Shown here: piece after piece, positions 791-58,100 of the stretch | How the letters are laid out: each line of letters begins with the position of its first letter | Position numbering within the stretch: the stretch's first letter is position 1 | From: Sphaerolaimus hirsutus | Taxonomy: Eukaryota; Nematoda; Chromadorea; Monhysterida; Sphaerolaimidae | Reading direction: 5' to 3' | DNA length: 64,000 nucleotides | Assembly (NCBI GenBank): GCA_964036195.1 | Contig: OZ038452.1 | Span: 14,564,704-14,628,703, forward strand | Notes under the pieces: model-generated | Told to the model about the DNA's origin: nothing | Databases searched by the model: none | Seen by the model: the letters and a program-made list of their open reading frames with translations, nothing else | Program-made: the position numbers and the translations under genes

Positions 791-3700
791 GTAAATACAC
801 ATTCATGTTTCAAGATATTGCACACATAATTTGCACTTTCTGTGTAACCAACCTGCGTCATGTGTACCACCAGCACCAGCCAATATCAAGTTGAAATGTT
901 GAAATTGTGTTTGTGAAGTTAATGTCAGATGAGGGTTGGGAGAACGATGCATTTTTCGTGGTTATTAAAATTATGTTAGACACATCCTTTCTGTTGGTCC
1001 ACATTTTCCAAATGCTTCAGAAGAGAATGAGGATATTGGTGTAAATCCATCCGTGAGAAGTAAGTTTAGAACACCCAATGCACCTATCACATTCAGTGAT
1101 TGTACACAGAAGCATGCCACAGTTTCGAAATGCATGAATGCTGGTTTTCACAAAGTTTGCACAATATTCAGTGTTATTTCCAAGTACTACAAAAAGTTTA
1201 CATTTTAATGTTTCAATGTTATTGTAGTAGTTGATTGTAAGTTGATTATAAGTTCAGTTGTATGTATTTGCCAAGCCATTTGTCATAAATTGATGATCGC
1301 AAATGTCTGTAATTTCTTATCCTCTCTACCTTGTGGTTAATGTAATATGCACATCTTTTAACATAAAATACCCGATATTTCGGGTTTTAATGACATTTCT
1401 TTCATGTTGTTGGTGTCGTTACTTGGGAGATGTATATTCACGAGAAAACACCCATCACAAAAATCTATTGGTAGCGATTTCAATCAAACCGTGTGATTAC
1501 AATGACCAGTCAGTAAGTACCCCACAGCACAGTAAAATGTGATGTGAATAGTAGAGTGTCATTGATAATTGGTTAAATGTCATGTAAACTAAGAAATTTG
1601 CAGATAAAATGAATGACAGTCTTTTATGACATATGACTGATTTACCTTAATTTGAACATTCAACATGGAATTTCATAGGGTGTGGGATTGGCCCTACCTA
1701 GTGGAGCGCACTACAAATTGTTCTTTTCTATACGGAATATTCCAATATACCGAATCAGTTTTCGTAGGTCGGCAAGGTTTGTGTTCCAATATAATTGGGT
1801 ATTTTTGCATAGGTACTTACAATCTGACTTACACTGGAAACGTCATTGAATGGCCAATGGTTGTATCCAATGACTAAAACAATTTCATCATAATTCAGAA
1901 CGCGCACCTCGCTAATCACGTAATCGTCCAAAAACAAATCTATTTTACTTAATCGTCGGGCAGTAAATTGGATTTCACGTGGGGCAATATTTCACCACTG
2001 TTTCCCAGAAATCGGATCATTTTAAAGGGTTAAACTGTGTGTATTCCCCACGGCCACAAGGTAGGAGGATACTTTTTGAAAAAACGGGTCTTATGCATGA
2101 TTAGGGCACGTAAAAAGATTGAATGTTGCAAGACAGTAGTGATGGAATGGCGCCCCGGCAACGCTAGCGCCATTTTACGGCGCCAGATGGCGCCATTTTT
2201 CTGTGGATCCCTTTTTTGGAATGGCGCTATGACGCCGTTTGCGCTTGGCGCCATTTTTCCTGGCACTTTTCCATCACATGCACATTGATACATACTTATG
2301 TTCCTGTTCTTAGATCTACGTTTAACCATTTTATGCTTCTTTCCAGTATGTGAATGATATTCAAGTAAATCTAAACGAACAGTCTGACATGAGCATGTTT
2401 CAAGTGTTGCTGTCAGAAGGAAGAATGTATTTACATAAATAATTAAATACAGGGGTGGGCATCTTCAGTTACCGCTGGAAAAACGCGATAGCTTGAGCTA
2501 CAGTTGAGCTATCACAATGAAATTTTAACACAATAGAGTAGACTCCATAGGACACCTATGCTGAAGTTTGCAACCCAAACGGCCACAGTTTGGAGGAGTT
2601 GTGGAACACACAGTTTTTAGTGTAATTTTGTGACTTCACCCCCCTTATCTCGGGACTGGGGGACTATTCGAGTAAAAAAAGAATTTGGTAGTAGGCGCGA
2701 CCACAACATACTCAAAGGGCATCAAAATCGGCCGATGTACGACAGAATGGGACGACACCAACGACCGATGACCCCCCCCCTCAAATGCCACCCTCGATTT
2801 ATCCTATGGGTGACGCCAAGTCACAAAATTACACTAAAAACCGTGTGTTCCACAATTCACCCAAAATGTGGCCGTTTGGGTTGCAAACTTCAGAATAGGT
2901 GTCCTATGGAGTCTACTCCATTGTGTTAAAATTTCATTCCGATAGCTCAACCGTAGCTCAATCTATCGCATTTTCCCAGCGGTAACTGAAGATGCCCACC
3001 CCTGTATGTTTAAAAGTGTCGTCACTTGCGCAGGCCACCGATTCTCAATGTGTCGTTCACTGTGGCTTGTATGGGCAACACTATTTAGCGCCAGCGTGAA
3101 CACGGATGTTCCTAGGTCCTATACCGCCAGGTTCATTGCGCTGGTTGGTGGCACGCAGTATGCGCCAGTTGTTCAGATAACAAACTTTAGATAACATTGG
3201 ATATAACAAATGAGGCACCAACTTTTAAAAGTCGATAAGTGTAAAAAATCTACTTTAAGACATTTGCATTTTCAGTTTGAAATTTTCCATTTTAATTGTA
3301 TGTCAAGCTGTAATCGCGGTTTTATGAACAATCTATACACTTATCGACTTTTAGAAATCAGTATCCACAATGGACTTATCAACGTTTTTCCTTTTTTCTC
3401 AAGAACTGCAGCAAGGGTTAACTGATCAACTTCTTGTCCGATTGCAACTGGACTTGCCCTTCTTGCCCGCTTTTTTACAAATTTTTGCAATAACTAGCAA
3501 GCGACGTCGAAAAAGTTGGAAATTGGTTGTAAATGGGCAGGATCAACTCCAGATGACGTTTCTGTGCTTAACTCGAATGTATTCGTCGCAGGTGTGGGCA
3601 GCGTTCGCACTGACTTTTCTGGCTGTCTACACCGCCAATCTGGCTGCTTTCATGATCACGCGGTCGGAGTATTTCAACCTGCGTGGAGTCGATGACCCCT

Positions 3701-6700
3701 TGGTCGGTGAAGAAATACCTTACCCTACCTTTTTATGGTACCTTACCTACCTATATAGATATTTTACGTAGTAGCATTTAAAAAGACAGTATGTTTCACG
3801 TTTCACATCAAAATGGGTTTGTTATGCGTTGTGAATCAGGTTGGATTTCACACGCTTCCACCACCATCGTGAAATTTACGGCGTGTGTACACTTCACTTA
3901 GCTTCGCACGCACTTCACGCGCTTCCAAAATTGGTGAAGACACTTTCCGATGCTGGCACTTCCACACACATCACCAGCATACATATATTTACATTATTTG
4001 TTATTCAGTGCCAAAAAAACCCTGTGATTCACGCAAATCTCACGCAAATTTTCAGGATGGATGTGGAAGTGCTAACATGCTTGGTGAAGCATCGGGATGT
4101 GTCGGCGTGAAGCCGCTTCACAACGCTTCACCGCACATCCACTCCACACCTCTATATTTTGTGTGTTGCTGGATTGACACTGGGGTTTGAACCTGGTTTC
4201 CGCCATGGCGCCATTCTGTAATTACCATATACGCAGCTGCAACATCCCGCTGAAACGACACCGCCATTCAAGTATGGAACCATCGAGGGTGGAAACACAC
4301 ACGAAACCCTGAAACGCAACTACAAAAACATCCACGACTTCATCGAAGCCAATAATTTTTTCTTCAACAATCTTACAAACGCCATTCTCAACGTGAAAGC
4401 CGAGTTGGTTTGAATTTAACCTCTTTATTCTCATTTTGTGTGCGGTACAGGACTAGTGATGAGAACTTTGGCGCCAAGCGCCATGGCGCTTTTCGACCCC
4501 TAGCGCCAAGCGCCAATGGCGCCAGAGCAAAATGGCGCCAAGCGCCATGGCGCTTTTTGCCGTGGCGCCAGCGCCAAGCACCTGCGCCAGGAATGTTTTC
4601 CTGGCGCCGGTCAAAAATAGCGCCAAGCGCCAAAAGCGCCATTACGCTTTTCATGGACATGGCGCCAAGCGCCAATGGCGCCACAGCAAAATAGCGCCAA
4701 GCGCTTTTTGCTTTGGCGCTAGCGCCAGACGCCAGCGCCATGGCGCTTTTACATCAGTATACAGGACAGATGCTACAACGACGATATTGTATTTATTTAT
4801 CAATAACAATATTGTGCCACCAAAATTTTTTTATTGGTAATGCAAGTACAGCACATGTGTGTCAACTGGTCTTTGTCAACTTAAATTTCGGTTTCACGTG
4901 TCGCAAGAGCAATTTTCCGATGCACTTGTCGTAATATTGATTTTTCAACATTGCCCATGTGCATTTATTGCAGATCGCTCTGCGACACATGAAGCCGAAA
5001 TCTGGATTGACACGGACCACTTGAGACATGTGTGTGGGCCGCCAATATTAAAAACACCCCAATTTTTGATGGAAGTGAGTATAAGTCGGCAGACATGATA
5101 CTATACAATGAGTCGCATGATGTCATATCATGCACGCTGTATCCAACCCGTAGAACTCTGTTTTGGTGACTCGTGCTTACGCATATACGGAATGAAACTA
5201 CCGTATTACCTCGAATTATCCCCCCCTTGAATTAACCCCCCCCCCCTCGAATTAACCCCCCCTCAAAATGGGCTGGGGAAATAATAAACCCCCCCCCTCG
5301 AAATACCCCCCCCCTTCGGAATGATGTACATCATGTACATAATAAATACGTCATGTACGCAATGTACATGATGTATATTACTGTTGATTTGCATTGCAGC
5401 TACACATATAGTAGTTTGTGTAACTATCTACATTTTTATGTCCAAATATATCCTGTTTGGACACATTTATTACCTATTTTGGGTACGCAAATGCCTACTA
5501 TTTACTACGATCCTTACGAAAATTTCTGACGAAATAATAAACCCCCCCTCGAATAAACCCCCCCTCGAATTAACCCCCCCTCAAATTTTGCTGGCGAAAT
5601 AATAAACCCCCATGGGGGTATTTCGAGGTAATACGGTATTCAATTGTGCCCGCACAATTCAAACCCCCGTCAAAGTGTAGTTGAGTTTTTTGGCATGATG
5701 CCATCCAAGCGTCGTCTGGATCTGAATAAATACAAAGCGGGAACGTTTTCTGAATTCAAAATTTTGAACGTAACAAGTTTTCGTCAAAATGAATCGATAG
5801 CGTGTAATTTTTCTAAATATGAATTAGATTAAACGTAGGTAAAAGTATAATCAAAAATTTGCAGTACTTATCGGCACAAAAATTGGAGTAAACGAGTGCG
5901 TTAAGAACAGCACATTTTTATTTTCCTTCTTACTATTTTTATATTTTCTTTTTTACTAAATTCCTTTCTCATTCGCACTACAAGAACAAAATATAACTTT
6001 CCAATTTTGTAGAATGATATGTCTGTCAACTATACATATTGACATATTCACGACCCACTGTGCACCGTTTTTCTACCGTATTTAAGATGTATCGCACTTC
6101 ACTGTTCAGTAAGATGTTGAATTTCATTGACGCTCAGCGAAGGGAAACATAAGTGGACCAAACCTGTATAATATCATGTCTGCCGACTTGTACTATGTAG
6201 GTATATTAAATTATAATAATTATCCACCATTGTATTTAAACAATAATTAAGCCCCAAAACAGAGCACTAAATGCATTCATCTACGACGCTGTGGTGCTCG
6301 ACTATGTGGCGGGCAAAGATGGAAACTGCGAACTCCTCACTGTGGGCCAGTGGTTCTCCAAGACCGGATATGCATTTGGCTTGTCAAAGAATTTCAAACA
6401 CTTGGGCAAAATCAATGAATTCATGCTCAAGTACCAATCAAAGGGTAAACACGATTATTAATTTATACAAATACCTCCTATACCATATTTGCTCAAAGAA
6501 TTCCCCCGAGGAATGATTATTTCGTCAGACCTTTTTAGGGAGAACTATTCGAAGGGGAATTATTCAAGGAGAGGAATTTTTTTATATTTCTATCAATTCG
6601 TTTCACGAGATATGCTTTATTTACAAAATAACATACCATTTATGTTCAAATTAGACAAACAACTTGATCATATGCCCAAAGGGGGGAATTATAGAAAGTG

Positions 6701-8434: not shown

Positions 8435-8544
8435 ACGTGATGAAATGATAAATTTACAAGATCATTGTACGTATTTGGGCATAAAACATATTTTATACAC
8501 ACCGTTTATTTGTTTCAATTTGCTGCACTATGAGTATAAATAAA

Positions 8545-9109: not shown

Positions 9110-9975
9110 TAGTGATGGAAAAGCGCCAGAAAAAAGGGCGCCAGGCGCCAATGGCGCCATGGCGCCATTCAGAAAGTGGGCGCCACAGAAAAAGGGCGCC
9201 AGGCGCCAAGGGCGCCACGGAAAGAGGGCGCCAAGCGCCAAGGGCGCCATGGCGCCATTTGAAAAATAGGGCGCCAGGCGCCAAGGGCGCCAGGATAAAT
9301 AAGTGCATACAACACCCTGCGTGGGCTAAAAGTGTTTCTACAGCACCGTAGTACATGCATTCACTACTTAATTTGCGTTCTCCAGGGTGTAATGAACAAA
9401 GACAACACTAGCAACAAAAAAATTTGAGTAAAATTCACATGACAATTCAAAAACAATGGATATTGTCATCTGACAACAATCCATTCACTTCAAATTGACT
9501 TTTCCAATCAATGTTTCCTCGAAATGGACAAAAAACGGAATTGCAACGATTTGAATCCATTGATTTATGATTTTGCAAGTTCAACATTCCATCATTCTCG
9601 TATTCTGATCTGTCAGACACATCTGATGAACCGTTCCACAAAAGATTTATACCCACTCACACCACTTCGTCCATTTTTCTGGCGAATTCAGATCATCCAT
9701 GAATGCGTTTTTCATCTTTTTTTCCATTTATACAGCACTCACCTTGAAACCCTGCTGGCGCTTTTTTGGCGCCCTTTAAAAGCAGGGCGCCAGGCGCCAA
9801 GGGCGCCACGACAAAAGGGCGCCAAGCGCCAAGGGCGCCATGGCGCCTTTCAGAATGTGGGCGCCAGGCGCCAAGGGCGCCACAGAAAAAAGGCGCCAAG
9901 CGCCAATGGCGCCATGGCGCGGCGCCCTTTGGCGCCCTCAAATGGCGCCAGCGCCATGGCGCCATTCCATCACTA
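9110..9975. mobile_element. Large GCGCC-armed element
   Basis: 866 bp, TAGTGATGGAA at the left and TTCCATCACTA at the right, flanked by ACACACAC on both sides (9102-9109, 9976-9983). The duplication lies in a CA microsatellite, so it is weaker evidence than others. Two arms of GGGCGCCAGGCGCC repeats (9121-9295 and 9758-9965) surround about 460 bp of unrelated sequence. Confidence 0.8.
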
Positions 9976-11670: not shown

Positions 11671-11699
11671 GTCCAGTGTAACGATGGCAAACCCTCTCG

Positions 11700-12257
11700 A
11701 AAAAAGTATTTTTTTCCAAAACGACTTTTCAAGTTTTTGAATTTTTTCCGGAAATACCTAATTTTTCGAATTTAGTTTTTAATTTTCAAATTTTTTTTTA
11801 TAACTTTTCAGAATTTTCAAATCTTTTTGTTACTTTTCGAATTTTTTGGCATCAAATTATTATATTTTCGAATTTTTGGTCTGACTTTTCGAACGTTTTA
11901 CAGCCTTACCGCTGTTACCGCATAAGTATTTTGCTTTTGCTGCTATACAATTACATGTAAATATGATATTTTTAGGTAAGGCTCTGCATTTTTACTCATT
12001 TTCAACAAAAATCACCAAAAAATCTTTTGAAAAAAATCGATTTTTATGTATTTTTTTCACTGCGTGATTAAAAATTCGAAGTCCTAAAAAATTAGAAAAT
12101 TCGAAAACGTTTTTGAATTTTCGAATCTTCTTTGGCCATCGTTAGTCCAGTGTCCAGTTTGCGGTGATGGCTAAATCAAAGTAAATTTTTAGTGTTTCAT
12201 TTCACCCGGTTTTTGGCGAGGCACATTTATTTATTTTATGTAACTCGTGTTTGATTA
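11700..12257. other. T-rich repetitive intergenic stretch
   Basis: Low-complexity repeats of TTTTCGAATTTT and TTTTCAAATTTT. No gene seen. It may be the body of another motif-filled element (motif TTCGAATTTT) lying between the phrases AACGATGGC at 11681 and GCCATCGTTAG at 12134, which are inverted copies. Confidence 0.5.
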
Positions 12258-13392: not shown

Positions 13393-14164
13393 TACTTCAG
13401 AACTTACTTTTTTACACCGTTTTACTTGTCACTGCGATCAGCAGAAGTGGCCCTAGATTGGATCGTAAGCTTCGTTGTGGCCTTAGCTATTGTCTGATTG
13501 CTGTTGAATAGATCGACTCCCCGCTGTGCCTTTTATGTGGTTGAGATGTGTTCTTTCCCAAATAAAAGCTTCGTTTTGGAGGAAGATGCTTTGTGAAATG
13601 GAAGTGCGCATAAATATCAACGTTTACAAGCGTCTGAATGTAAAAAATGTCAAAACGTCCATTAAAACGTGCACTGATCGAAAATTGACAAAGCCATAGT
13701 CTGATGTGATTAGCATTCAAAAAAATCACCAATTGTTTGGAAAATATATATAAATATATCACCCCAAACTTGGAAAAAATATAAATATATATAAATCACT
13801 CAAAGCCTTCAGAAAATATAATTAAATCACTGAAAAAATAACTCTAAGCTCAAAAAAATCACAAAAAATCACTTGCGGTTTATTTCAATTACAAGCAAAA
13901 TTGTGGGCTATTGCAGGCTTAATTTACCATTTGCAAGCACAAAAATGTACTCTAACATCCCTCAATCTATTTATTATTGCTTCACAAGCAGTATTCATTT
14001 CATACAATATTGACAAGTGAAAATATCACGCAAATATCACAACAGAAAAATTCAACCTACAACCTCAATGACAACTTCAAAAACATTTTGCACTGCAAAC
14101 ATGTTGCACTTAACCTATAGTGCCTGTTTGTAGCAGTGATGTTTGACTCAATGGGTGCTTAGTA
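13393..14164. other. Intergenic sequence without a recognised gene
   Basis: AT-rich, including AAATATATATAAATCAC units at 13737-13800 that recur at 15165-15275. No coding signal was found. Confidence 0.4.
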
Positions 14165-14569
14165 CCTGCAGCCCCCCCCCCTTCCCAGGGTGAGACCAAA
14201 AAAGTCACAGAAAATGCACCTTTTCCCATGTAATTTTTGATGTTTCTTAAAAATTTTGCACAATTCCTTCCCCATGCATTGTATTTTAAGCAGATCAGTC
14301 CCTTAAAACCAATATCCTTGGAAATCAACACATCTTTGCAACTTTTTGCTGTACATGTATGCATAATTACATACATATAAAGCAGTTCTCGGTGCTGGCG
14401 CCAACGCCAACAGCGCCATGGGGTGGCGCCTATGTATGGCGCTAGCACCAAAACGCCTTTTTGTACCTATATAGTGAAAAATGTTAGGGGGGGCTGAGCC
14501 CCCCCCCCCCCGTACGCTGGCCCCAGTAAACAAGCAGCCCCCCACTCAAAAATCCTGGATACGTCCCTG
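14165..14569. mobile_element. Truncated CAGGGACGTATCCAGG element
   Basis: The right end CTGGATACGTCCCTG (ends 14569) and the internal modules (C-run, GCGCC cluster near 14396-14450, GGGGGGGCTGAGCCCCCC) match the complete copy at 26785-27221. The left terminus is missing. Confidence 0.65.
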
Positions 14570-15164
14570 CTGTAGATCATTTTTGATGACATCAAGCAGG
14601 TATTTTTGATTCAATGTGATGTTTTATTTCAGAAAAGTATGTTATAAGATAGAGAGATGCTTTATACACTAAAATGTGACAATACAATTCATAGCAGGAT
14701 GACATAAAAAGTTACTAAAACAGTTTACATCTTTGTCACACACATAATGAAGACTAAGTGATGGTGATATCACCATTTGTCATCATTTGAGTTTTCACAT
14801 TAGGTAAACACAGTGGCAAACTAGTGACTTGCCAAAACAACCCCACTGAAATTCATGCTATTTGTGAAAACTGAACATCTACAGCATTCAATTGTGGAAA
14901 ACTGGATGGTGACATGTCACCATTTTTGGCCATTACAGTTCTCAAAAAAGTCATGGTGAAAACTAGTGTGTGTAGGTACAATATTTACCTGCTTCAAACA
15001 CTATTTTAACTCAATAATGCTCTACATGAGCTGATGAGAGATTTTCAGGAGAAAATTCTCTTGCAAAATTCAAAATTCTCTTGCACAAATTACATGTTTT
15101 AGTCATGAAGCACAATACTTGCACCACAATGTATCTAGTATGAGTGATTTTCTCAGTGATTTTT

Positions 15165-15290
15165 TTTTCGAATTTGAAAAATATATATAAATATATCACT
15201 CAGAATTTGAAAAAATATAAATATATATAAATCACGGGTTATTTATATTTATTCTGATTTTTGAAAATATAAATCACGGGTTATTTTTCG
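15165..15290. repeat. ATAAATATATCAC tandem units
   Basis: Short direct repeats of AAATATATATAAATATATC and AAATCACGGGTTATTT, related to those at 13737-13800. Confidence 0.5.
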
Positions 15291-15307
15291 AATGCTAGAT
15301 GTGATAC

Positions 15308-19327: not shown

Positions 19328-19816
19328 TAGGGTTCAAACGGGATTGACTTTTCGGGATCGGGATCGGGATTAACTTTTTGAGATTTCGGGATCGGGATCG
19401 GGATTGCGGTTTCGGGATCGGGATCGGGATTGGTTTTTTGAGATTTTGGGATTGGGTTCTAGGGATAGACATTTTGGCCATTTTTCTGGCATTCACAGTT
19501 GTTCATAAAGGTCTCAAAACACTGTTGGATGCCAGAAAAGTGGCATAAAATAAACACTGGGGGTTTGCATCCACTTTTTTGCATGCAAAAACGTCATTAT
19601 TTCACGTTTTATAATTTCCACTAATTTTTCCGGGATCGGGATCCCGGACTTGGGAGTTTCTTGGGATCGGGATCGGGATTTGAAAATTTTTGGGATCAGG
19701 ATTGGTATTTTTGGATTTCGGGATCGGGATTGGGGTTTCGGGATCGGGATCGGGACTGGTAAATCCCGGAATTTCACGGGATCCGGAATTGGGATCGGGA
19801 TCCTGTTTGAACCCTA
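19328..19816. mobile_element. CGGGAT-filled element, TAGGGTTCAAACGGGAT ends
   Basis: 489 bp flanked by GTCGCATG at 19320-19327 and 19817-19824. Ends TAGGGTTCAAACGGGATT and ATCCTGTTTGAACCCTA. The interior repeats TCGGGATCGGGAT, with a unique middle (TGGCATAAAATAAACACTGG region) shared with the two sister copies. Confidence 0.93.
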
Positions 19817-37100: not shown

Positions 37101-40100
37101 GCTACCACAATCAAAGCCAAACAGGCAAACCTGCATGCAGGTTTTCCTTCTGCAAATTTGTCTATTACCGTGCTAATTTCACTTTATTTTTTTCCGTTTC
37201 CGTGAAAATTTTGCTTTCCGTTTTCCGTTTTCCTGCATTTCATTTTTCCGTTTTCCGTTTTCCGGCCGACAATTTTTTTTTACCTTTCCGTTTTCCGTTT
37301 TCCGCTGAGTGAAATTTTTTTACCTTTCTGTTTTCCGGCAGAAATTTTTTTTTTACCTTTCCGTTTTCCGTAAAGTGAAAAAATTTTACCTTTCCGTTTT
37401 CCGTTTTCCGTAAAAAAATTTTTTTGACACCCTAGTCGGTACTACTTTGTCATTTGTAACGTACGCAGACATAGGAAAATGCATGCACCATATGTAAGAG
37501 TCTATGGACTTACCTGTATAAGTTATGTAGTGGTATAAACCCTTTTCCAACATAGTGGCCATTTTGAGGGGGTATTTCGATGAAATACGGTTCTGTTTCC
37601 ATTTCTGGATTTTGCAGCATTTTTGGTGGTGTATCAGCCCTGTTTGAAGGTGCGTAAGGGCAGTGGTGGCTCATGCAGAAAGCAGTAGACATTACAATGC
37701 ATTGTGTGCCGTTTCCTTGAATAGATCATACCGTATTACCTTGAATTAACCCCCCTCGAAGTACCCCCTCTAAAATTGTGCTGAGGAAATAATAACCCCG
37801 CTAAAATTGAGTCTAAAGAAAATGTACATGACAAGTATCGTGGTTTGTGATCTGTATGATACAGAACACACCTTGAAACCAACGATTGAGTTACGTTACG
37901 TCAGGGTTTATGCGTATATACAGTTATATACGTCTATAAACACATACCGTAAATCCTCGAATAAGTCCCCATGGGAGTTATTTTTTCCTCAGAATTTTTT
38001 GAGGATGGACTTATTCGAGGGGGAGTTATGTTTTCATCGAAATATTGAATAAAAAGCATCATCAAAATATCATCCGAATGGGGTTAAGTTAGTTGCATAA
38101 ACATGTAACCCTGAATAGAAATCCCATATTTCATGCAATGAAATCAATGTTAGTGTGCATAAACTGCAAAATAATGCATACTTTTAATGAGCATATACAT
38201 ACATACGTTTTTATACGTGGATTTCTTTCCCACCCATAAAAGTGGGGGGGTTTCGAGGGGAGGGGGTATGTTTTCCTCAGTCAGCTTACAGGGGGAATAT
38301 TCGAGGGGGATTTAATCGAGGATTTACGGTGTACATCTATGTAAATGTTTGATTTTACTATGTATGAGTATGTGGAATTTCAGAAAATTTCTGGCGAAAT
38401 AGCAGACCCCCCTCAAATTCACCCCCCTGAAAACGTGCTGGCGAAATAATAATCCCCCCGGTGGGTATTTCGAGGTAATACGGTATTTACATACCTGTGT
38501 GGAGCAAGTGTAAATTTTTTGGCACAATTTCACCTTCAAAATCATTAATTTTTTACGTTGCTGCCTATTTTTAACTTCATGTTTCTCATTGTAGATATTT
38601 ATATACCTTATTGTTTTTTAAGGCTTTACCTGGTATTAGTACTTTCTCACCCTTTTTTGCCATTTTCGACTTGTAAAAGTGTGCCCTTGCGAACCCTATG
38701 TATATTTTTAAAACTGCCCAAAAGATGTTCTAGATTAAAATGTTCTTAGCTGGCCTGTCGTGCATATTGTTGATTCATTTGTCATGTGTTCTGTGTAATG
38801 ATGTCTCCAATTTGCAGCCATGGCTGGGCAGCTGTGTGGTCATGGATAACATCAAAATTCTGTAGGGCGCGCCCGAAGGACGCAGCCAAATTAGGGTTTG
38901 TTTATAGGTATTTAGATGAGTGCGTATGCTGTTAGCGCGTTTTTTTCAAAAATGTTTTTGATTGCATTACGTGTCTCCTAAGGTTTGGTGTTCAGGACTA
39001 GTTACCGTAAATCCTCGAATAAGTCCCCTCTGTTGTGTGCGTGCGGAAAACAAAACTCTCCCCTCTGATCAATGTCGCAAATGCATAGTGTCACATAAAA
39101 ACCGTTCGATGAAGCCGGACAGACCATTATAGCCATGGTCTGATTCATCGAATGCAAATGCAGTGCAGCGTGCAACTATGAACACAAAAGAATGTCTTAC
39201 CTGGCGACTACTGATGTAAAAGCGCCATGGCGCTTGGCGCTATTTTGCTGTGGCGCTTTGCGCCATGCCTATGAAAAGCCCCAATCTCGCTTTTGGCGCT
39301 TGGCGCTATTTTTGTCCGGCGCCAGGAACAAAATGCCTGGCGCTGGCGCTTGGCGCTAGCGCCAAAGCAAAAAGCGCCATGGCGCTTCTGGTGCTTATCG
39401 CTAGGGGTCGGAAAAGCGCCATGGCGCATTCGCATCACCATTAGAGACTCAAAACTTCAGTAGTGTTTCGGTAGAAAACAGAAATTGCAGTTCAATATGA
39501 CCCATTTTAATAAGGTACCGCGTGGTGGTGCCTAACTTCGCGGAGCCAATTGCGCCCCTTGTGGGTCGCGCGGGAGCTTCCAAGCGACCGCAATCGAATG
39601 CCGAGATAAACCGGCAGCTGTACGGCGACAACAGACTCAAGACCAGCAAATACCACCCTCTCACCTTTTTGCCTGTCAACATGTTTGAGCAGGTGCGCAT
39701 TTTGAGGTATGCAAATGCATATCTGAGACAGGTGTAGGAGGGGGGTAACCCCCCCCCCCCCAAACCGCCCAGCTATCTATCTATCATGAAGGTCGCTCAG
39801 CTATATATCTATCATGAAGACCGCTCAGCTATCTATCTATCCCGGAGGCAAAATTTTGGGCTACTATCAAGGACGTAGCCAGGGGGGGGGGCGGGGGGGG
39901 GGGCGGCTGCCCCCCCCCCCCGTTCCCGGGTCGGACAAGAAAATATACCCGAAATGGTGCTTCCGTAAAGCGATTTTGTCGCCAGTCCGGAAAAATTTTG
40001 CGCGCAAACGCGCATTTCGGCGCCGCACAGTATATTTTAGTTATACCTGTGGTTTAGGACCAAAAAAGCAGTGAAAATTCGCCCCCGTCGCTGTATATGT

Positions 40101-43100
40101 ATGTAAAATACATACAAGTACAGCACTATTTGGCGCCAATGCCAACGCCAATGGCGCCATGGCCTCGCGCCTACGAATGGCGCTGGCGCCAAGGCGCCAT
40201 TCCTTTACCACAGGGGTCAAATTTGGGGGGGGGCGCCGCCCACTCCCCCGTTCGCCGAGCTCCGTATACAATCCGCCCCCCCCCGCTCAAAAACCCTGGC
40301 TACGTCCCTGGCTACTATACCCTACCCCCCCTATCTACCCATACAGAGCGATTTTTGAGAAACTACACTAGAATTTTCACTCAAAATCGATATTTTCCAT
40401 ACCTTTTTATAGATTTTCACCTCCAAAATCACTAGGTCATGTGTCTAACTGCCTATTTTCAGCTATTTTTTGTATTTTATATAATATGTGCTTATATACC
40501 CATTTTTAGCGATTTTTCACCTACCTTTTTTCCGTTTTCTTCCTTCTATACCTTGAATAAGCCTAGGTGTATATTGAACCCCCGCGAAACCTCCAAATCT
40601 CTCCAACCCTCCCCCCCCCCAAAAAAAAAATTTTTTTTTCAGCTATATCTCTCCGGTGGGGTGATTTGCTATCTATCGAACCCCCCGGAGGGCCAAAATC
40701 TAGAATACCCCTGACCTGAGAACAATGTATTTATGAAGACACATTCCTGAATTGTAATGTAGACTTCTGCAGACAGACGTTGTTCTCACATTAGCAAACT
40801 GTTTGTTCCCTGTGTGATACCTTTCTTTTGTTTGCAGCTGCAGCGCCTGCCCAACCTATATCTGATCGTATGTGCGATACTGCAGTGGGTACCTGTGGTG
40901 CGCTCAACTCGTTTTTTTTTCTTACTTTATAAAATTCTGTCAATCAATAAGTGTAACGGCGTGAATATGTCTAAAAACGAAGTCAATAAAAGATTTGAAA
41001 ATTCAAAAAGTAATCAAAAAGATTTAAAAATCTGATAGAAAATTCAAAAGATCCTGTTTTGTAACAATTATCACACGTTTCAGCATGTTATGGTTCAACA
41101 TGTTATGTTCAGCATTTACTAAATATGATCCTTCACAAAAATTTGTGCCTAACTAACACCTCCATTGAATAGGCCCTGTGCCATTATGCAGTTAAACCTA
41201 TCATGCATGTAGACCCAGCACACATTGAACTATAACCAGCATGCTGAAACTATGCAATAAAACACATGACCTAGTGATTTTAAATGTGAAAATCTATGTA
41301 TGAAAGATCTAAAAGAGTATGAAAATTAGTGACTTTGGGTGAAAATTAGGGTAAATTTGCTCAAATGAATGAAAATCAAGTGAGTTGTAAATCATCAAAA
41401 ACACTCCAGATAGCTGGATTGCTAGGCAATTTGCCGGGTGGGGGCTGTTCAGGGTAAAGTAGCCAAAAAAATTGTCTCTGGTATAGATAGATAGCTGGGC
41501 GGTTTGGGGTGTGGTTATCTGCTCTCATTTCTTACCCCTGCAGGTGAAATGTGCCTATAATGGGTCTACATGCATAATAGGCCTGACCTTTTGAATAAAC
41601 CCCCTAAAAATTTGCTGGCGAAATAATAAACCTCCTTGGTTATTTGAGGTAATGCAGTAGTGTGTGCAGGAAGAAAAAGTTGCTTGAGTTCAAGGAATCA
41701 CAGTGCCGCCAACTTGCCGCCAAAGGTACTGTGTTGTGCTATACCATGCCAATCTTTGTGTTCATTTGCAGCTGGAGTCAGTCACACCATTTGTTGCGAT
41801 GCTGCCACCACTATTTGTGATCGGTGTCAGTGGTCAGTTACTCAACAACTGTGATTGGTAGTATGAGGTGCAAAAGTTACCGAAGCAGATACCTAATTAC
41901 AGTTTTTCGCGATGCTTTTGAGGACTGGCGACGAACTGTCTCTGACCGCAGGATTAACAATCGTAATTGTAGAGTTTGGTCAAGTGGCCAGCTGGAGAGC
42001 AAACATGGTGATTTTGGGTTTGATAATGTTACTGGAACTCACGGTAGTACAGGGTACCGGACATTTCTGAAATCCCTGTTTTCAATCAGTTGTTTCCTCA
42101 AATCTATGTATTTCTAAATTTGAAACTTATCAAGCCACTTGAAATGATTTTCCATCTCTGTTCATGTTTTTTTTACATTTTCGGGTCCATTCTCAAGATT
42201 GGAGTTCAGTGGATGTCTGTTGTCTGGGTGAGAAGTGAAATTGGGTCAAATAATTATTTCACTGATCTCACTCACCTAGTGCTGTTTGGAACGCAGGTGC
42301 TGGCACGACTGGCTCTTACATAGCAAAGAGGTGGGCTGATGTGGTTGTGGGTGATTTGGTCCACATTGGTTGTAATGAGCCAGTTCCTGCTGATGTTCTG
42401 ATTCTGAGGTTGGCCACTGGTGGAGTTGCTGGTGCTGTTGAGCTATACACTAGGGTACAAAATAAGTGACCAATTTTTATTGTGTATTAGCGCTCATTCA
42501 ATTACTGCAAACTTGCAACGGGGATGTTCAATTTAGTGGAAAATATGGTATGCTGTCCCAATATCATAATTGGGTTAATTGCACTCATTTTTTTGTGAAA
42601 ATCAAATCAATCAATAAATTTTTAAAGGTTACAATCACAAATATTTCCCATTGAAACGTTTTCCTTCACTTTTTTCTAGTGCATGTTCAAACTGGGCTAT
42701 ACCCTTCCAGACCTGATTTGTAAATATGTGGGAGTTGATAAAATGGATGACTGCATCCCTTGCACTGAACTTCAATATACCATCTGAATAATGAACCTGG
42801 ATTATATTTTTCTATTCACACTAGATTCCTCTCGGTATAGCAGAATAAAAGACATTCATTTATACCTTCAAATATGGCAATTCTCTGCAGAGCGTGCATA
42901 TTACTCCATAATATTGATACTCACAGATCATCAGAACTCAGTCATGGTGTTGCCTACATGGAATCTTCAAATCTGGATGGAGAATCAACACTCAAAGTGC
43001 GCCGAGCTGCAGACTACTTCATTGCACAGGACAAGCGCCGCTCTGCTGGCAGTGAGCCACTGCCACTGGCTTGTTCAACACACTTTGTTGTACATTGTGA

Positions 43101-46100: not shown

Positions 46101-49100
46101 CCCTGGCATTGTCTCAATTTTTCCAGAGTGTCCAATTCACAAGTTCACCACCCATTTTTTTATTTCATTTCGAGTGTAATATCTCCGTCTATGGGGTTTT
46201 TATAAAGCTGAAACATTGAATACCGTATATCCTCGATTAAGTCCCCCCTCGAATAACTCCCCCCTCTCAAATAACTCCACCCTGTTAGCAGACTGAGGAA
46301 AAAATAACTCCTCCCTCGAAGAACCCCCCTCTTCAATGGGTGACTAACATCTCCATATACAAAACAACGTTTTTATGTGAGTTTTCTCGAAAAGGATGCA
46401 TTTATTGCAGCGTATCTTCACTATCATTCATTTCATTGCATGAATTAAAAAATTTTAATTCTGACTTACAGGTTTATGCAACCAATTCAACCCTATTTTT
46501 ACAATATATTGATCATGCAGTTTACTTAATATTTTGACGAAAAAATAACTCTCCTCTCGAATAACTCCCCCTCTCGATTAACTCCCCCCTCAAAAAGTTC
46601 TGACAAAAAATTAACTCCCCGGGGGACTTATTCAAGGATATATGGTATATAAAGTTGTAACACCCCCCTACTCTGCTTCAATGGGGGCAACTCACTACTG
46701 AGTGGGTTGCCCTATATGCAACACTTTTTTGGCTTTTTTGGTGTCCCAAACAAGTTCACCACCCACTTGATTAACTACAAGTCGAGGGTCGTATCTCCAG
46801 CTGTGAGGGTGGTAGAAAGCTGAAATTTGTGGGATATTTTGCCAACAACCCCCTAACAATACACCAGTGCGGCTGCCTGCCAGCGACCAACTACGTTGCT
46901 GCATGTACAATTGTTCATTTTATTTAACAACCCAAGTATCCCAAACAACTTCATCATAAAAAATGTTGTGAGAACATACATGATATAAAATTGAGTCAGA
47001 TTGGAACCCTAGTCATTAAAAAAAAATTTCAGTTGGACACCCACACCCAACAGCAAACCGAAAATTTCACTTTAAACCAATTTTTTTGTTTCACACTCAA
47101 AACGTTAGTTTACAAAGTTCACTAAGGAAGGGTCCAAGGTTCAAAGTTACTTGAACAACATGACCTCTAAAATGCCCCCATAAGGAAATTTATTTGGGGT
47201 GAATATTATGATGTCATAATCACATCATCAGAGGAACAAAATTTGACACAATTTTCATTTTTTTCATGCACCCCAAATAAATTTCCTTATGCAGGCATTT
47301 TAGAGGTTACGTTGTTTACATAACTTTGAACCTTAGACCCTCTCCTAGTGAATTTTGTAAACCAACTTTTTAAGTGTGAAACAAAAAATTGGTTTTATGT
47401 TAAATTTTCAGTCTGCGGTTTATGGGACAGGGTGGGTGTCCTACTGAAAAAATGTAATGAGCAGAACTAGGGTTCAAATCTTATTCAATTTTATATCAGG
47501 TATGTTCTCACAACATTTTTTATACTGCAGTTGGGTGGCGAACTTGTTTGGGAGACTTGGGTTGTTAAAAAAAAATGAACAACTTTAAATGGGGCGACCC
47601 ATGCTGTAGTGGGTCGTCGGCGGCCACCCACGGGTGTATTGTGAGGGGGGTTGTTTGCAAGACATCTCCCAAATTTCAGCTTTCTATCACCCTCACAGCT
47701 GGAGATATGGCCCTCGTAGTGTAGCTAATCAAGTGGGTGGTGAACTTGTTTGGGACACCAAAAAAGCCACAAAAAATGTTTGCATATAGGGCGACCCACC
47801 CTGTAGTGAGTCGCCGCACCTTCCCCAGTTGATATGGAGTAGCGGGGTGTTAGGACTATATACCCACCAAATATTAGCTTTATACCACTCCCATAGCTAG
47901 AGATACTGCATCTGATGTGAAATAAAAAATGGGTGGTAAACTTGTCCGGGAAGGTGTTTAATAAGTATTTATATCAAGTAATAATGTCATTGGTCTCCAT
48001 CCCTCCAATAAGTCTTTGATCCTTTCAATTTCAGTAAGGATGGCACTATTCATGACACTGCAAAAATTGTACAACATATTTACCTTTGCTTGCAGGGAAC
48101 ACTGCATCATCCACTTCCCAAAGTCCCACTGAAGAAAAAGAAGTTCCATATTGGGAAAGCGACCAGGACTGGTCAGACTAATGTGGGTGCATGTAAATAT
48201 ATTTTTATTGCCTGTTCTAGCAGGCAGGGGTCTCCAAGATTTTGGCCCTCGCGGGGGCTGGATAGATAGCAAATCGGTCCTCCAGAGGGATAGATAGCTG
48301 AAAATTTATTGAGGGGGGGGGGGGCTGGGAGGGGGCTCTCGGGGGCAAAATATATAGTCTTTTTCAGTGCATAGCAGGCAGAAAGGGGAAAAATCACTAA
48401 AAACAGGTTCAAAGTAGCCAAAAATGGCTAAAAATAGGTATATCAACATGTGTATAGGTGAAAGACGTGATTTTGAAGGTGAAAAACTATAAAATGGTAT
48501 GACAATTAACGATTTTGTCCAAAAATTGGGTAAATTTTCTCAAAAATCGCTCCAGATAGGTAGGTAGCTGAGCGATTTTGGGGGTGGCTAAGGGGGTAGT
48601 AGTCAAAAAAATTTGCCTCGGGATAGATAGATAGCTGAGCGGCCTCCGGGATAGATAGATAGCTGGCGGATTTGGGGGGAAACTCCCCTCTGCCCCCCCC
48701 CCTTTAGGAGACCCCTGCTAGCAGGTGTTCCCAGTGGAGAATCTATGACATTGAAAGTAAACAATTCTCTTCACTCAGGGTAAGCACAGGGGCTTCAATG
48801 CAGCCAAAACGGGCCATAAGTATCAGAAAGTTATGACAACTGGAGGTATGTACTTCATGTCCATTTCGTTGCCAATTTTTACATGGGAAGTTGCTTAAAT
48901 ATATCCCACCCGAATCATCAGCAGAGTCCAGCAAGGCAACAGATATTTGGGGCAGTGGTGCTGCAGCCGATGATTCAACCCAATCTGAGAGCGAGAACTC
49001 GCTGGTTGGCAATAATTTGTGTTGTCACTTGTACAGGGGTCTCCAAGATCTTGGCCCTCATGGGGGCTGGATAGATAGCAAATCGCTCCTCCAGAGGGAT

Positions 49101-52100
49101 AGATAGCTGAAAATTTTTCTGGGGGGGGCTCGCGGGGGCAAAATATATAGGCTTTTCAGTGCATAGAAGGCAGAAACGGAAAAAAATCGCTAAAAACAGG
49201 TTAAAAGTAGCTAAAAATAGGTATATAAACATGTGTATAGGCGAAAGCCGCGATTTTGAAGGTGAAAAACTATAAAATATATAAAAAAATTAACGATTTT
49301 GAGCGAAAATTGGGGCAAAATTTCTCAAAAATCGCTCCAGATAGGTAGATTGCTGGCCGATTTTGGGGATAGATAGGTAAAATTTTTGCGTCCGGGATAG
49401 ATAGATAGCTGAGCGGCCTCCGAGATAGATAGAAAGCTGGCGGATTTGGGGGGGGCAGCCCCCCCCTCTAGGAGACCCCTGCACTTGTCACCCACCTTTC
49501 TCCGTTGCTGATGTTGGGCGCGTTTCAAAAAATCTTTTCGTCTCTTATTCACCCGATGTTTTGCACATGTGCTGATTACATGTAACATATTTCTTCCAAT
49601 AGAACGGCATACCTCCAATAGAACGGTAGGTTTTGGAACGTTGTTGCGCTCACGAACTGAATAGAACGACAGCCTCCAATTGAATGGCACCTCCACTGGA
49701 ACAGCAGGTAAAAAAGTTGGCGACAAGATAGAACGGCACTATTCTATTAGAAGAAATGCGGCAAGTATTCAATAATAAATACATTGACATGCTCCTATGT
49801 TATTCCGCATCCTTGAATCGGAAACTTAAGGGATCTGTGATAACTGTCTGGATTTGTGCACCTTTTCTTAACGCATCGCTTGACAAGTTGCGAAATTTCC
49901 GTCTGATTTTACATAAATAAATGATATTTTTTACATCCTTTCAGTCCGGCAGTGGTTTGGTTAAGTTTCGCGGCATCGCACAGGCTGCCGTCCGCCCATT
50001 TGGATTCATTACGAATCTAGCAATCACTGCGATCAAGGGTGAGGGTGTGGGCGTGTGAAGGGCTTTTACATTGCTACTAATTTGTTGTTTGTAACCTATG
50101 CAGACGGTGGTTATTGGTTATTGTTCATTTTTCTACGTCTGCATAGGTTACAAACAACAAATTAGTAGTGGGAGTTAAAGAAATTTCTGGCGAAATAATA
50201 AACCCCTCCCTTCGAAACAGTCATTGTTTTGAACGTGTGTCTGCAGTGCCCGGCAGGGGTCTCGAATGGGGGGGGGGGTTGGGGGGGGGTTACCCCCCCC
50301 CAAATCGCTCAGCTATCTACCTATCTGGAGCGATTTTTCAGAAACTATACCCCAATTTTCGCTCAAAATCGCTATTTTTCATACCTATATATAGATTTTC
50401 ACCTCCAAAATCACTGGTTCATGCGTCTAACTGCCTATTTTCAGCTATTTTAAGTACTATATGCTCTTGTATACCCATTTTGAGCTATTTTACACCTACT
50501 TTTAGCGATTTTTCTCCCTTTTCTTCCTTCTATGCCCCGAAAAAGCCTATATATCGAACCACCACAACCCCCCCCCCAAACCCCCCCCCCCCCAACCCCC
50601 CCCAGAAAATTTTTCAGCTATCTATCCCTCCGGAGGAGCGATTTGCTATCTATCCAACCACTCGGAGGGTCAAAATTCAAGATACCCCTGGTGCCCGGGT
50701 CACAAACCAGCTCTTGTCACTCAATTTGGGGGGGGGGGTATTTCGAGGAAATACGGTATCTTTCATTATTTCATCGCACCTGATCTGATCACATGCAATG
50801 TATCCTTCAAAGACCCCCCACAGAAAATTCTACTTTAATCGTATCTCTGTAGTGATAAAACACAGCACACTTCAATCCCACACTACCTACCCAATCCCTG
50901 GCTGAATCCAGAGCTTTCACTGCCACACTCAGATACTACGAACGCCGCCCGAGCCGTGGCCAGCGTGGATTCGACGGCGCCGCGGCTGCGCGACAGCACC
51001 GGGCGTTTCATGTACGAGGCCGAGTCGCCCGACGAGCTGGCGCTGGTGAAGACTGCGGCCGCCTATGATGTTCGATTGCTCAAGAAGAAACCCAACCGGA
51101 AGGCGAAACTGCAAATGCCCGATGGCTCCGTGGCGCGGTCGGTTCTTGTCCTCAAATTCAACCATTTTAAGTCGTGTGAAAAAGTGTGTGATGGCAACGC
51201 TCGCAGCTACGATATTCTACATGTGCTGTGCTTTGATGCCGACCGCAAGCGCATGTCGGTCGTGGTGAAGCGCAGGGGTTCTCGTGCCGGCCCTATACTG
51301 TTTTGCAAAGGTAAACATTTGTTAAGGCCAGAGTTGTTAAAAGTACCAAATTTTTCAAAGTATTTATCTATGTAAATGTAAAGTAGGTATCTTCAATTTT
51401 TCCCTGGAGTGTTATACAGAGAACATAAAGTAAAATTTTTTACTTGAGTAAATGTAAAAATACGTGTTTAGCGTAAAAAACGGCATTCAGAAATGACGTA
51501 GGCCTATTGCGCATCTAAACCCATTGCGCATCTAGGCCCGTAGGCCACATCGCTGGGGGGAAAAAGGGTCACTTTGAAAATATGGTATCCATCGATGGGG
51601 CGGAGTGCGGCACCGCTTTTGAAGTAATTATCTGCGCCCGGTCATGAGTTAATGCGGTATAATCCGCCTACGGCATGAGCTTTGCTCGCACCACTTATGA
51701 AAATAGCCGTTATATCTGCAAATGTAGGTAAATCTTATGCTGGGGCCGGATAGACCAATTATAACTTGATTTGCATTGTCATTTTGTGACTACTTTTATT
51801 CACTAATTACAATGAAAACGTATGATAAAAAATGACCGATGTGAAATCAATTTTTGTTGATACCTTTTGTTGATACCGATTTTTCCACCCAACCAGGCCA
51901 CATTGGGGGGGGGGGGCGTAGATGGGCAAGGTGCACGGGATTCGCGATCTATGTATATAGGTATTGGCGCACAGCCGCGCGGGGCAGTGTCTGTTCGCTG
52001 CGGGGGGGGGGGGCACAGAATAAATCGGGTGTGGCATTTTAGGGGGGATTTCACCAGTATTTCGCGTCATCCCTTTCTGTCGTATGTTGGCCGATTTTGA

Positions 52101-55100: not shown

Positions 55101-58100
55101 CTTCACCAACACGAATACCAGCTCCAGAATGTTCAGCGCGGAGCAGAGCAGGTATATCTTGGTGATGGTTTTGTCGGTCTGGCTACTTAGATTCCCACCG
55201 ACGCTGACGCCTGTCAAAGCACATAATCATTACAAATCACATAACCATTTAGCTTAAAATTGCTGCAATTGTCTGGCTACAGGTCAGCTCCCGACATGCC
55301 CCTGGATGCGAAGACACCGGGAAAGAAATCTGATGGTTAGTGAAATCATCAATATGCTATCAATATTCCAATTATTTGTTATAGGTAATTTGTTTATCGT
55401 CAAATTGTTAACATTTGTATTTTTCTGCTTGCGACTCATGGTCGCGTGTATATTATAAATATATTATACCGTATAGGTAGTATATCTAATTATCAGAAAA
55501 AAGCAAAAAAAGCTGTATGCATAAATGCACCGGCCTACAGGTGCCATACAATGCATCGCCACCCGCTGTATATATATTAGCCACACTAGTTTACACACAC
55601 CAGTAAACATAAACTTGAGTACTCATAAATCAGCTTTGAACGTATTCGACTTTAATTTTGAGTTTTCCTCGTAGGATCCAAACTAGTTTTCACCGTTTTA
55701 AACTCAAATCATGTAAATTAATTTAATCGAACAGATTATAAAAAAATGTTTTGTTATTTTAAAAATGTGAATCACCAACGAGGTAAATTAAAAAATTATT
55801 AACTTTTTTAATTCTGTTAACTTCTGATAAAATTTTTTTCTGTCGACACTCTTTATGAGCAGTCAATTTTTAGTTTACTTGTTTTAGTAAACTAGTGTGT
55901 GCAGCGACAATGCGTACAGAGGATGACGATGGATTATACGGCACCTGTGTAGACTGGTGCGTTTACGCATATTTGCATATTTTCGCTATGCCGTAATGTA
56001 TTCACTAGGTACTTTGGAGAAACTACAGATACCGGTAGGCGGGGGACGAGCACAAAGAGCGATATGCCCGGCGACGGGACCAAACTGTCGGAGCCGAGGC
56101 CGCGCTTCGGCGTCATTCTGGACGGCGTGGCGCTGCGCTACTGCCTCAACTCGCACAACGTGGCGCTGTTTGCGCGCGTCGCCCGTCGCGCCAGCTCCGT
56201 TCTCTGCTGCAGGGCCACGCCGCTGCAGAAGGTTGGCGCGGCGGGGACGTCGTCAATTCTATTTAAATACTGTAAAATACTATTTGAAGTGAGAAGTGAT
56301 ATGAGACGAGAGAACTGAAATTGCAAGTAAAAAACTAAAAGCGAAATAATTTTAGAAGTTTGATATTTAAAGAAAAGTTTAAAGTTTTCTTTGTATTTAA
56401 TTTTTAACTTCTCATTTCACTTCTCCTTCCGCTTTTACTTGCCATTTCACTTCTCATTTCTCAAATGGTTGTTTTACGTCTCCACTTGCCGAATTGTTAC
56501 CTGGCAAATAGAAACATGATTGCTATCTGCAATTGCAGGCAGCCATCGTGAAGTTGTGCCGGTCGCGTTTGGGCGGCCGCACGCTGGCCATGGGCGACGG
56601 GGCCAACGACGTGTCCATGATCCAGTGCGCCGACGTGGGCGTCGGCATCGCCTCCAAGGAGGGCATGCAGGCGGAGCTCGCCGCTGACTTCGTCCTCGCG
56701 CGCATGAAACACCTCAAAAGGTGATAACTAGTGATGGAAAGGCACCGAAGGGAACCACCCCAGCACCGGTGCTGGTGGGGGCGGTGCCCTACCGGTGCCG
56801 GTGCCATTTTTAGAAAAGCACCTGTGCCGGTGCGGTGCCATATTTCTCGGCCCGGTGCATTTTCCATCACTAATGATCGCATCTCATGTGCACTCGTTTA
56901 TCATTTCACTATTGATTATATCTACTCAGGTTGCTGCTAGTGCAGGGCCATTGGGCAGCTGCCAGGGTTCGCCGCACTGTACGATTTTTCTTCATGAAGG
57001 GCTGCGTGAGTTCGGAATGCATATTTTTATATTTATGCTTGCTTCCGATAACAAATGTTGCAACGTGCAGTTGGAAATATTCGCCATGCTGCTTTACTCC
57101 GTGACGAAGGCGGGCGCGTCGGCCACGCTCGCCCTCACGCAGATCGATTATCTGTTCTACAACATGACCCACACCGCCGCCCTTCCGCTTTCACTGGGTA
57201 TTTTCTGGCAGAGTGCCAGTGCGAAGGTTCTTTTGGCATTGCCCGAATTGTACAAGCGAAAAAATGAGCTGAGAAAAACGGTGAGATGTCATGGATGTTA
57301 TCAGCTTATTGGATTTTGTCAGTTGTTATGTATCTGTTTATTGGTAAATATTTAACTCATCATTTTAGGAGGGTTGGTACTGGCTGACAATATTTGATAC
57401 ATTCACCAAAGCTGTCATCCTGGTCTTCACGCTTCTTACGGTGGGTTATTTGTGAAAATTGAGGAACATGTCTGCAGAGCTGTGAATAGCACTGAGCGTT
57501 TTGTGCCAATTTTGCCAATTGAAAAGTTGAGCCAATTTTGCAGGCACTCGGTCCTACGTACAGCTGCCAAGACATACGCGTGCCCGTATGTTGGTTGCTT
57601 GTAACTGTTGTCAACATCCACTATATCATTGCCAATGAGTACGTGGTGCGTTGTGTTTGATTCGAGTTATCGTGTGGTCGTGTTTATAGGTAACATGACA
57701 TCCCATGCCGAGTCGACTTCTAACCCCTCTTTAATGACCCCCCCCCCCTGTGATAGGTGGAAAAGTTCGGGTCAATCACAAAAACAATCAATGAAGCCAG
57801 ACAGATCAAATAAAGCTACGCCTGGTCTGCACATGCAGTGCAGTGTATGAATTGTGAAAATGCCATGGCAGCGACAACGTAGGCCTATTGTCCATCTAAA
57901 CCCATTGTCCATCTAAGCCAGTTGCCCATCTAGGGAGGGCAATAGATGGGCAACAGCAGGGATTAGCCTCAGCGATCGATCGCTGAGCGAGTGCATAGTA
58001 GAGCAGGGGGTGGGGGGACGGGGGTTAGGGAGCGGCGTTTAGACAACATGTTTTTCATAGTGTGGTGGATAAAACACATAGGCCTACACAATGGACCTCC

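Follow-up and report, generated by a model that had tools for sequence, protein, structure and literature searches.

Transposase-bound subterminal repeats are known for the transposons Ac, Herves, Tol2 and Hermes of the hAT superfamily, and Hermes, Ac and Herves are among the systems closest to the one considered here. In maize, the AAACGG hexamers of Ac are bound cooperatively by the transposase, three copies being sufficient, and some Ds1 elements devoid of these hexamers still move (PMC3260210). The mosquito element Herves carries the motif CG/AATTCAT at both ends, which is necessary and sufficient for transposase binding, and four direct copies of CGATTCAT are bound (PMC3143072). Mutation of subterminal repeats of Tol2 reduced its excision (cited in PMC10368747). 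In Hermes of the house fly, the BED finger recognises AAG(T/C) and the target-site duplication (TSD) follows nTnnnnAn; two BED sites form a quasi-palindrome in bp 11-27 of the left end, which the right end lacks, and elements with two left ends are inactive (PMC10368747). Its subterminal repeats (STR) are antisense on the left (STR2-7) and sense on the right (STR1-5; PMC10368747), which we read as a single direction along the element. Here we examine a 64,000-bp stretch of the nematode Sphaerolaimus hirsutus (contig OZ038452.1, positions 14,564,704 to 14,628,703; hereafter the window) together with the rest of the genome. Many short elements of this stretch have hAT-type ends, and in several families the subterminal regions are filled by dense arrays of a short word. 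We consider it likely, from the sequence of these elements, that the arrays are transposase-binding sites, amplified and switched in concert, in non-autonomous hAT elements.

The comparison with the described systems reveals common aspects as well as differences. Short terminal inverted repeats (TIRs) and 8-bp TSDs are shared with Ac and Ds. Ac has many AAACGG hexamers within its outer 200 bp, of which short Ds elements retain nothing but the ends and the hexamers, and one family found here, with TAGGGTGTC ends, reiterates AAACGG too, whereas a hexamer switch among sister families is not described in the accessible text on Ac/Ds (PMC3260210). Herves, in contrast, is one element with few sites, and its left end also contains three tandem repeats of 100 bp. 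With Hermes the elements have in common the 8-bp TSD, a palindrome at one end in bp 11-27 and additional sites that all point one way, and AAGTGTAA/AAGCGTAA in the families with CAGAGTTG ends recall AAG(T/C). Hermes differs in that its short sites, 17 at one end and 14 at the other, are dispersed, with no clear requirement for those in the interior, instead of forming dense tandem arrays, and in not having several sister families distinguished by their word. Miniature inverted-repeat transposable elements (MITEs) of bivalves (pearl, CvA, DTC84) are likewise short elements with a tandem array, but of satellite-like monomers, up to six of them (PMC5139131), unlike the 5-7 bp words found here in both subterminal regions and entering the TIR. 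Pineapple MITEs are also linked to microsatellites, which in that case are the insertion target outside a Mutator-like element (PMC8449440), and the CMITEs of corals are piggyBac-like (PMC2872659). The sequence-only reading from which this work started had held satellite-armed MITEs to be an undescribed class; in view of Ac, Herves, Tol2 and Hermes this was overstated. In the titles and first lines of abstracts listed by searches of the open-licence literature, word switching among hAT families is not mentioned. Beyond that first reading, the present analysis adds arrays running in the same direction at both ends, a palindrome at one end only, and a concerted change of word on a fixed scaffold.

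The word differs in concert across the array, the palindrome and the TIR-proximal site between sister families. The TAGGGTT scaffold occurs with CGGGAT, CGGGAC or CGATAT as alternative words, and within the element bodies the own word outnumbers the others by 514 to 1 for CGATAT, 326 to 11 for CGGGAT and 161 to 3 for CGGGAC. CGATAT follows two different tips, TAGGGTTCAAA and TAGGGTTGGGA, so that the word can be separated from the tip. Three words are also found with the CAGAGTTG scaffold, where the palindromes AAGTGTATTTACACTT, AAGCGTATTTACGCTT and AAACGTATTTACGTTT pair with arrays of GTGTAA, GCGTAA and ACGTAA, respectively. An intact palindrome accompanies an array of the same word in 9 of 12 such copies, the exceptions being one with the palindrome but few array words (L031), one with a damaged palindrome (L015) and one mixture (L138); copies of the GTGTAA type hold two or three GCATAA beside 9-10 GTGTAA. 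Ends of the TAGGGTTGGGAA type carry either CGGTTC or CGGGT(A/C), and TAGTGATG ends either GGCGCC or GGCACC/GGTGCC. Families which the sequence-only reading had called unrelated-looking thus share, in many cases, a few scaffolds.

These elements are abundant in the genome. Exact end motifs were counted on both strands with the same motif read backwards as a control, so that the figures refer to ends rather than elements and include a small background: 16,617 matches against 37 for TAGGGTTCAAAC, 4,418 against 313 for TAGGGTTGGGA, 12,392 against 97 for TAGGGTGTCAA, 20,511 against 651 for TAGTGATGnAAA, 15,578 against 244 for CAGAGTTGnnAAA and 4,570 against 7 for CAGGGGTCTCnAA, an array-less family. 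From the first 100 places of each motif, end pairs were taken in listed order on one contig (C1), which gave 69 pairs, all within its first 8.3 Mb: 29 with TAGGGTTCAAAC ends (omitting one pair 4.3 kb apart), 20 with TAGGGTTGGGA ends (of 23 listed pairs at most 5.2 kb apart) and the first 20 with TAGGGTGTC ends. For TAGTGATG ends only two loci were fetched (L126, L127), and the unbiased sampling covers TAGGGTTCAAAC, TAGGGTTGGGA and TAGGGTGTC ends. A perfect 8-bp duplication flanks 52 of the 69 pairs and a 7/8 match five more, against 3 matches in 4,692 when partners are swapped between pairs; consistent duplications, on which the first reading depended, are thus borne out. Lengths fall between 100 and 2000 bp in 63 pairs, the longest reaching 5115 bp. 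In 65 pairs the commonest non-trivial 6-mer exceeds all 500 background samples (exceptions L053, L057, L065 and L067), and in 66 the word has one and the same orientation at the two ends, with ties in L053 and L065 and opposite directions in L067, which lacks a duplication and is unlikely to be an element. Eleven CAGAGTTG pairs were also fetched: eight have the two expected unlike ends, with six perfect TSDs, one at 7/8 and one absent, and the remaining three are of another type without duplication. In a mixed set of 47 elements of many families, taken as they came, the words run the same way in 33, in opposite ways in 9 and are tied in 5. Short, devoid of transposase, present in many copies and sharing their ends with a transposase-bearing relative, these elements have the attributes of MITEs. 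Two sampled copies, L076 and L079, have one duplication in common and may be a single duplicated segment.

The layout of the ends is as regular as the word itself. At 77 of the 88 ends of 44 copies with TAGGGTTCAAAC or TAGGGTTGGGA ends, bp 12-17, still within the TIR, are the array word; five of 49 copies were skipped for having too few words, and L069, truly a CGGGT element, was counted and fails at both ends. At one end, a palindrome (CGGGATCCCG, ACGATATATCGT or CGGGACCGCGGTCCCG) starts at bp 11-12. Among the 44 sampled CGGGAT, CGGGAC and CGATAT copies, 34 have a perfect palindrome of 10 bp or longer at this end, namely 22 of 29 with TAGGGTTCAAAC ends and 12 of 15 of the TAGGGTTGGGA/CGATAT type, and none has one at the opposite end, the frequency in random DNA of the window being 707 in 20,000. 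The other five sampled TAGGGTTGGGA pairs, four of which are CGGTTC or CGGGT elements, lack such a palindrome. At the other end, the word is followed by a short spacer (TGACTTTT or CCAGTTTTT) and then by the array. This Hermes-like architecture, found in the 34 copies and in the CAGAGTTG families, is absent from those with TAGGGTGTC or TAGGGTTGGGAA ends; in the CAGAGTTG copies, the other end has a palindrome of different sequence, AAATACyGGTATTT. The polarity also holds relative to the transposase relics described below. In all ten CGATAT relic loci with an identifiable end (L016, L017, L019, L068, L109 and L112-L116), either the palindrome end precedes the hAT frame on its 5' side or the spacer end follows it on its 3' side; of these loci only L019, L068 and L109 have both ends with a duplication. 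The TAGGGTGTC elements are polar too, their TTTCCG end being 5' in 9 of 9. Arrays mirroring each other in the manner of TIRs were considered and rejected for the word-bearing families, in which the words run one way. As a separate observation, one of the 15 TAGGGTTGGGA/CGATAT copies is a composite (L066, G000:C1:1998555-2001256): an TAGGGTGCC-type end interrupts one of its ends immediately behind bp 12, so that the word is CGATAT on one side and CGGAAA on the opposite side.

The arrays were already in place before the copies spread, some later growth being allowed. Copies with CGGGAT at unrelated sites align unit by unit through the array and differ by 6-bp steps. Five long TAGGGTGTC copies hold 39-42 words each, their outer 250 bp being about 98% alike, and the CAGAGTTG groups hold 10-12 words at unrelated sites; in other groups the number varies from 29 to 36 and from 29 to 70. 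Microsatellite growth after insertion was therefore rejected as the main source, because the register of the words is common to copies at unrelated sites, and the presence of arrays in 65 of the 69 sampled copies agrees on this point with the sequence-only reading.

Several of the word-bearing families are hAT elements, as that reading had supposed. With a profile search of the 348-Mb genome for the hAT dimerisation domain (PF05699), at least 28 loci were found. For 17 of these 28, such ends and an 8-bp TSD (7/8 in two of the 17) enclose the domain within the 3.2 kb of sequence considered per locus. Nine of the enclosing elements have TAGGGTGTC ends, five TAACGATGG, two CAGAGTTG and one TAGGGTTCAAAC with CGATAT. 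A further protein search detected related relics beside TAGGGTTGGGA/CGATAT ends (L112 to L116). A second complete TAGGGTTCAAAC/CGATAT element with a perfect duplication encloses a relic in L109, and the TAGGGTTGGGA/CGATAT element of L068, also perfectly duplicated, contains a weak one (tblastn E 2.5e-6; weak with a custom profile, silent in Pfam). Two relics match the C terminus of the Hermes transposase in PDB (E 5e-9 and 1e-8), and faint hAT relics occur in L059, L061, L064 and L042 (E 0.006 to 5e-5). The relatives found to bear a transposase carry only the C-terminal part of the gene. The ends TAGGG, TAGTG, TAACG, CAGAG and CAGGG fit the start of the short hAT TIR, YA(R/A)NG. From 46 perfect TSDs the consensus is GTYnnRAC, compatible with the nTnnnnAn of Hermes; after symmetrisation, T2 and A7 each account for 51/92, and G1 and C8 each for 49/92. 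Among the hAT-domain loci found, none was seen enclosed by elements of the CGGGAT, CGGGAC, CGGTTC, TAGTGATG or CAGGG-type families; the CGGGAT and CGGGAC families are tied to hAT because they share their scaffold with CGATAT. The custom hAT profile yielded no convincing relic in the window, and no Pfam match was obtained in six frames for L069, the longest pair of the sample (5115 bp, with a perfect TSD), whose frames, 110-125 residues long, did not resemble a transposase.

These observations can be assembled into a model. The elements would be non-autonomous hATs, at least some of them derived by internal deletion from transposase-bearing ones, and the array words would be multiplied binding sites for the N-terminal BED-type finger of the mobilising transposase. 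In several families, at the end upstream of the relic, a word and its inverted copy form the palindrome of bp 11-27, where two fingers could dock cooperatively; at the other end a single word precedes the spacer, and from there the words follow one direction along the whole element. With words running one way, the two ends would not be equivalent and only a left-right pair would be joined. Between related families the scaffold is kept while the word differs at the near-TIR site, in both arms of the palindrome and in both arrays, and such a concerted difference is what one would predict for sites that track an altered specificity of the finger. We infer that the word is a binding site, that a BED finger reads it and that different words correspond to different transposases. 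The view of the arrays as amplified binding sites, already put forward in the sequence-only reading, fits the layout and draws further support from the Hermes-like polarity and from the joint difference of palindrome and array, while binding itself stays presumptive. More tentatively, and with chances that we would place slightly under even, the families split by word switching: the finger preference changed and each lineage rewrote its near-TIR site, its palindrome arms and some 10-40 array words, leaving the families mutually invisible; the series concerned are CGGGAT / CGGGAC / CGATAT and GTGTAA / GCGTAA / ACGTAA. On this reading the repeated array would be what makes the switch possible, since the amplification of one variant unit would supply most sites at once.

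Several findings weigh against this model. The very abundant TAGGGTGTC family has no word palindrome at its 5' end and an A/T-tract palindrome at its 3' end; the TAGGGTTGGGAA families (CGGTTC, CGGGT) have none in bp 11-27 (0 of 4 copies), and CAGGG-type families move without arrays. The nine opposite-direction elements of the mixed set, some with TAACGATGG ends, have no clear word. GTGTAA and GCGTAA, like GGTGCC and GGCGCC, differ by a CpG transition, and CpG decay may contribute to these pairs, which we judge less likely. Searches of the genome with zf-BED, PF14372 and PF04937 and of 6-kb upstream stretches returned no full-length or autonomous copy: the eight zf-BED (PF02892) matches resembled host genes, PF14372 and PF04937 gave nothing here nor in control genomes, which makes their silence uninformative, and the 6 kb upstream of four relics, examined visually and with Pfam in the three frames of the strand that carries the relic, held no transposase domain except one hAT dimerisation domain, the stretch at L139 containing a Patched-like host gene instead. 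In Hermes, moreover, mutation of putative left-end sites left about 70% of the activity, and the authors consider auxiliary binding by interior sites unlikely (PMC10368747).

That apparent dispensability of interior sites in Hermes would also suit arrays that are by-products, arisen by slippage in a few source elements and copied passively, the word having no role and switching by homogenisation, with CpG decay for some pairs. Units of 5-7 bp slip readily, the differences between copies of a family are of whole units and large in some groups (29-36, 29-70 words), and the array-less CAGGGGTCTCnAA family is abundant too (4,570 against 7). Slippage of direct repeats does not, however, reach the TIR-proximal site or the inverted arm of the palindrome, where the word differs as well (77/88 sites), nor does this account sit easily with one direction at both ends in 66 of 69 pairs, a left end resembling that of Hermes and a word number that in other groups hardly varies between unrelated sites (five copies with 39-42, the CAGAGTTG groups with 10-12); we regard it as unlikely. 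The words could instead be sites for a host protein acting in transcription, chromatin or methylation, which would either assist the elements or silence them, the switch being an evasion of the host and not a response to a changed transposase. Many words do contain CpG and arrays could attract host factors, but the word enters the TIR at bp 12-17, the palindrome occupies, at one end only, the place that in Hermes is bound by the BED fingers of the transposase itself, and a site for a host factor would not be expected to form a palindrome on one side with constant polarity, so that this explanation seems very improbable. A narrower doubt concerns the CAGGGGTCTC and CAGGGnCGTA families, which another superfamily with 8-bp duplications might have moved. 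No hAT-domain locus examined lies inside such ends, though no search was aimed at them; on the other side, elements with TAGGGTGTC, TAGGGTTCAAAC, TAGGGTTGGGA, TAACGATGG and CAGAGTTG ends do enclose hAT domains, and the combination of CAGGG ends and 8-bp TSDs is characteristic of hAT elements. A mover outside hAT is, in our estimation, improbable for these two families. Amplified and jointly switched transposase-binding sites are the explanation that we retain for the arrays.

Within the window, all 16 perfect 8-bp duplications quoted in the sequence-only reading are present beside matching inverted ends; of its four 7/8 cases, a scan recovered two (25254-25869 and 49034-49481) and the other two were not identified. 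This de novo scan (TIR at least 10/12, TSD with at most one mismatch) returned 15 candidates, 12 of them with a perfect TSD, whereas ten Markov-simulated windows gave no perfect-TSD candidate and 0-4 at one mismatch or less. The claim that each family is filled with its own array proved too strong: dense arrays are clear in nine of the 16 elements, absent from six of CAGGG type and ambiguous in one. The nine begin with two TAGTGATG-end elements with GGCGCC(A) arrays, at 4454-4759 (TSD TACAGGAC) and 9110-9975 (TSD ACACACAC), for which, as for the unstranded elements below, no strand is assigned. Three TAGGGTTCAAAC-end elements follow, with CGGGAT on the plus strand at 19328-19816 (TSD GTCGCATG), CGGGAT on the minus strand at 19883-20311 (TSD GTTAGACA) and CGATAT on the minus strand at 20740-21535 (TSD CTTTGCAG), the last with the palindrome end ACGATATATCGT at its left. 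A plus-strand element with TAGGGTTGGGAA ends and the word CGGTTC (26504-28055, TSD GTCAGCAG) contains a nested element (26785-27221), and a plus-strand element with TAGGGTTGGGAC ends and CGATAT (33073-34036, TSD GTTGGTAT) contains a minus-strand TAGGGTTCAAAC-end element with CGGGAT (33296-33702, TSD GCTCAGCC). The ninth, unstranded, has TAGGGTGTC ends and the word TTTCCG/CGGAAA (34399-37434, TSD GTCGGTAC); the Ac hexamer AAACGG is also present, and a fragment of a Pao-type retroelement (peptidase A17, weak reverse transcriptase match) lies within it. The ambiguous case is an unstranded element with TARGGTTGG ends and an AT-rich interior with AACGTT (31625-32326, TSD ATCCCGAG).

The six elements without dense arrays, all unstranded, have a commonest word of 5-8 copies, under a background whose maximum is 12 per 572 bp among 500 samples. 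Three are of the CAGGGnCGTA type, at 22276-23097 (TSD CGAGTTTG), 26785-27221 (TSD ACAGGAGC, the element nested in 26504-28055) and 39868-40310 (TSD GCTACTAT), and three of the CAGGGGTCTC type, at 29621-30152 (TSD GCCAAGTT), 48225-48717 (TSD CTAGCAGG) and 50254-50690 (TSD GTGCCCGG). To the quoted list the scan added an unstranded element with TAACGATGG ends at 11679-12144 (TSD GTCCAGTG), without a clear one-way array but with ends that enclose hAT domains elsewhere in the genome, and one with TAGCATTC ends at 13711-15297. An unstranded pair of TAGTGATG ends with GGCACC/GGTGCC words (56729-56872) has no good TSD.

Other features of the window and of the genome can be mentioned. A separate minisatellite of 34 TTTGACTTGACA-like units with a period of 12 occupies 30584-31020 of the window, with no hAT ends noticed nearby, and an open frame at 50839-51375, recognised by eye only, resembles part of a phospholipid-transporting ATPase. 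Elsewhere, a TAGTGATG and a TAGGGTGTC element lie back to back (L126 and L086, G000:C1:343447-346218) with the middle 8 bp in common, GTCAAAAC standing before, between and after them, so that two hAT-type families used one target site. Two TAGGGTTCAAAC elements stand side by side in L008:1160-1811, their duplications CATAGCAC and ATAGCACC being offset by one base. Near the start of C1, TAGTGATGAAAA recurs at a spacing of 7344-7345 bp (G000:C1:64877-79565, C1:162378-169723), which hints at a long tandem array. A stretch of 23 kb on this contig (C1:7466186-7488779) contains six zf-BED loci on the same strand (L037-L039, L041, L042, L044), with zinc-finger-like frames beside several of them; they are probably a host gene cluster and not transposons.

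These families bear on the question of how a transposase can coevolve with the DNA sites that it recognises while both remain functional. Sister families that differ in their word, with a palindrome that covaries, would make this recognition readable from the sequence itself. The asymmetric left end, previously known from the structure of one element, Hermes, appears here as a plan repeated in several hAT families. The elements of S. hirsutus, without forming a wholly new class, would thus extend the rule of hAT subterminal repeats to dense and switchable arrays.

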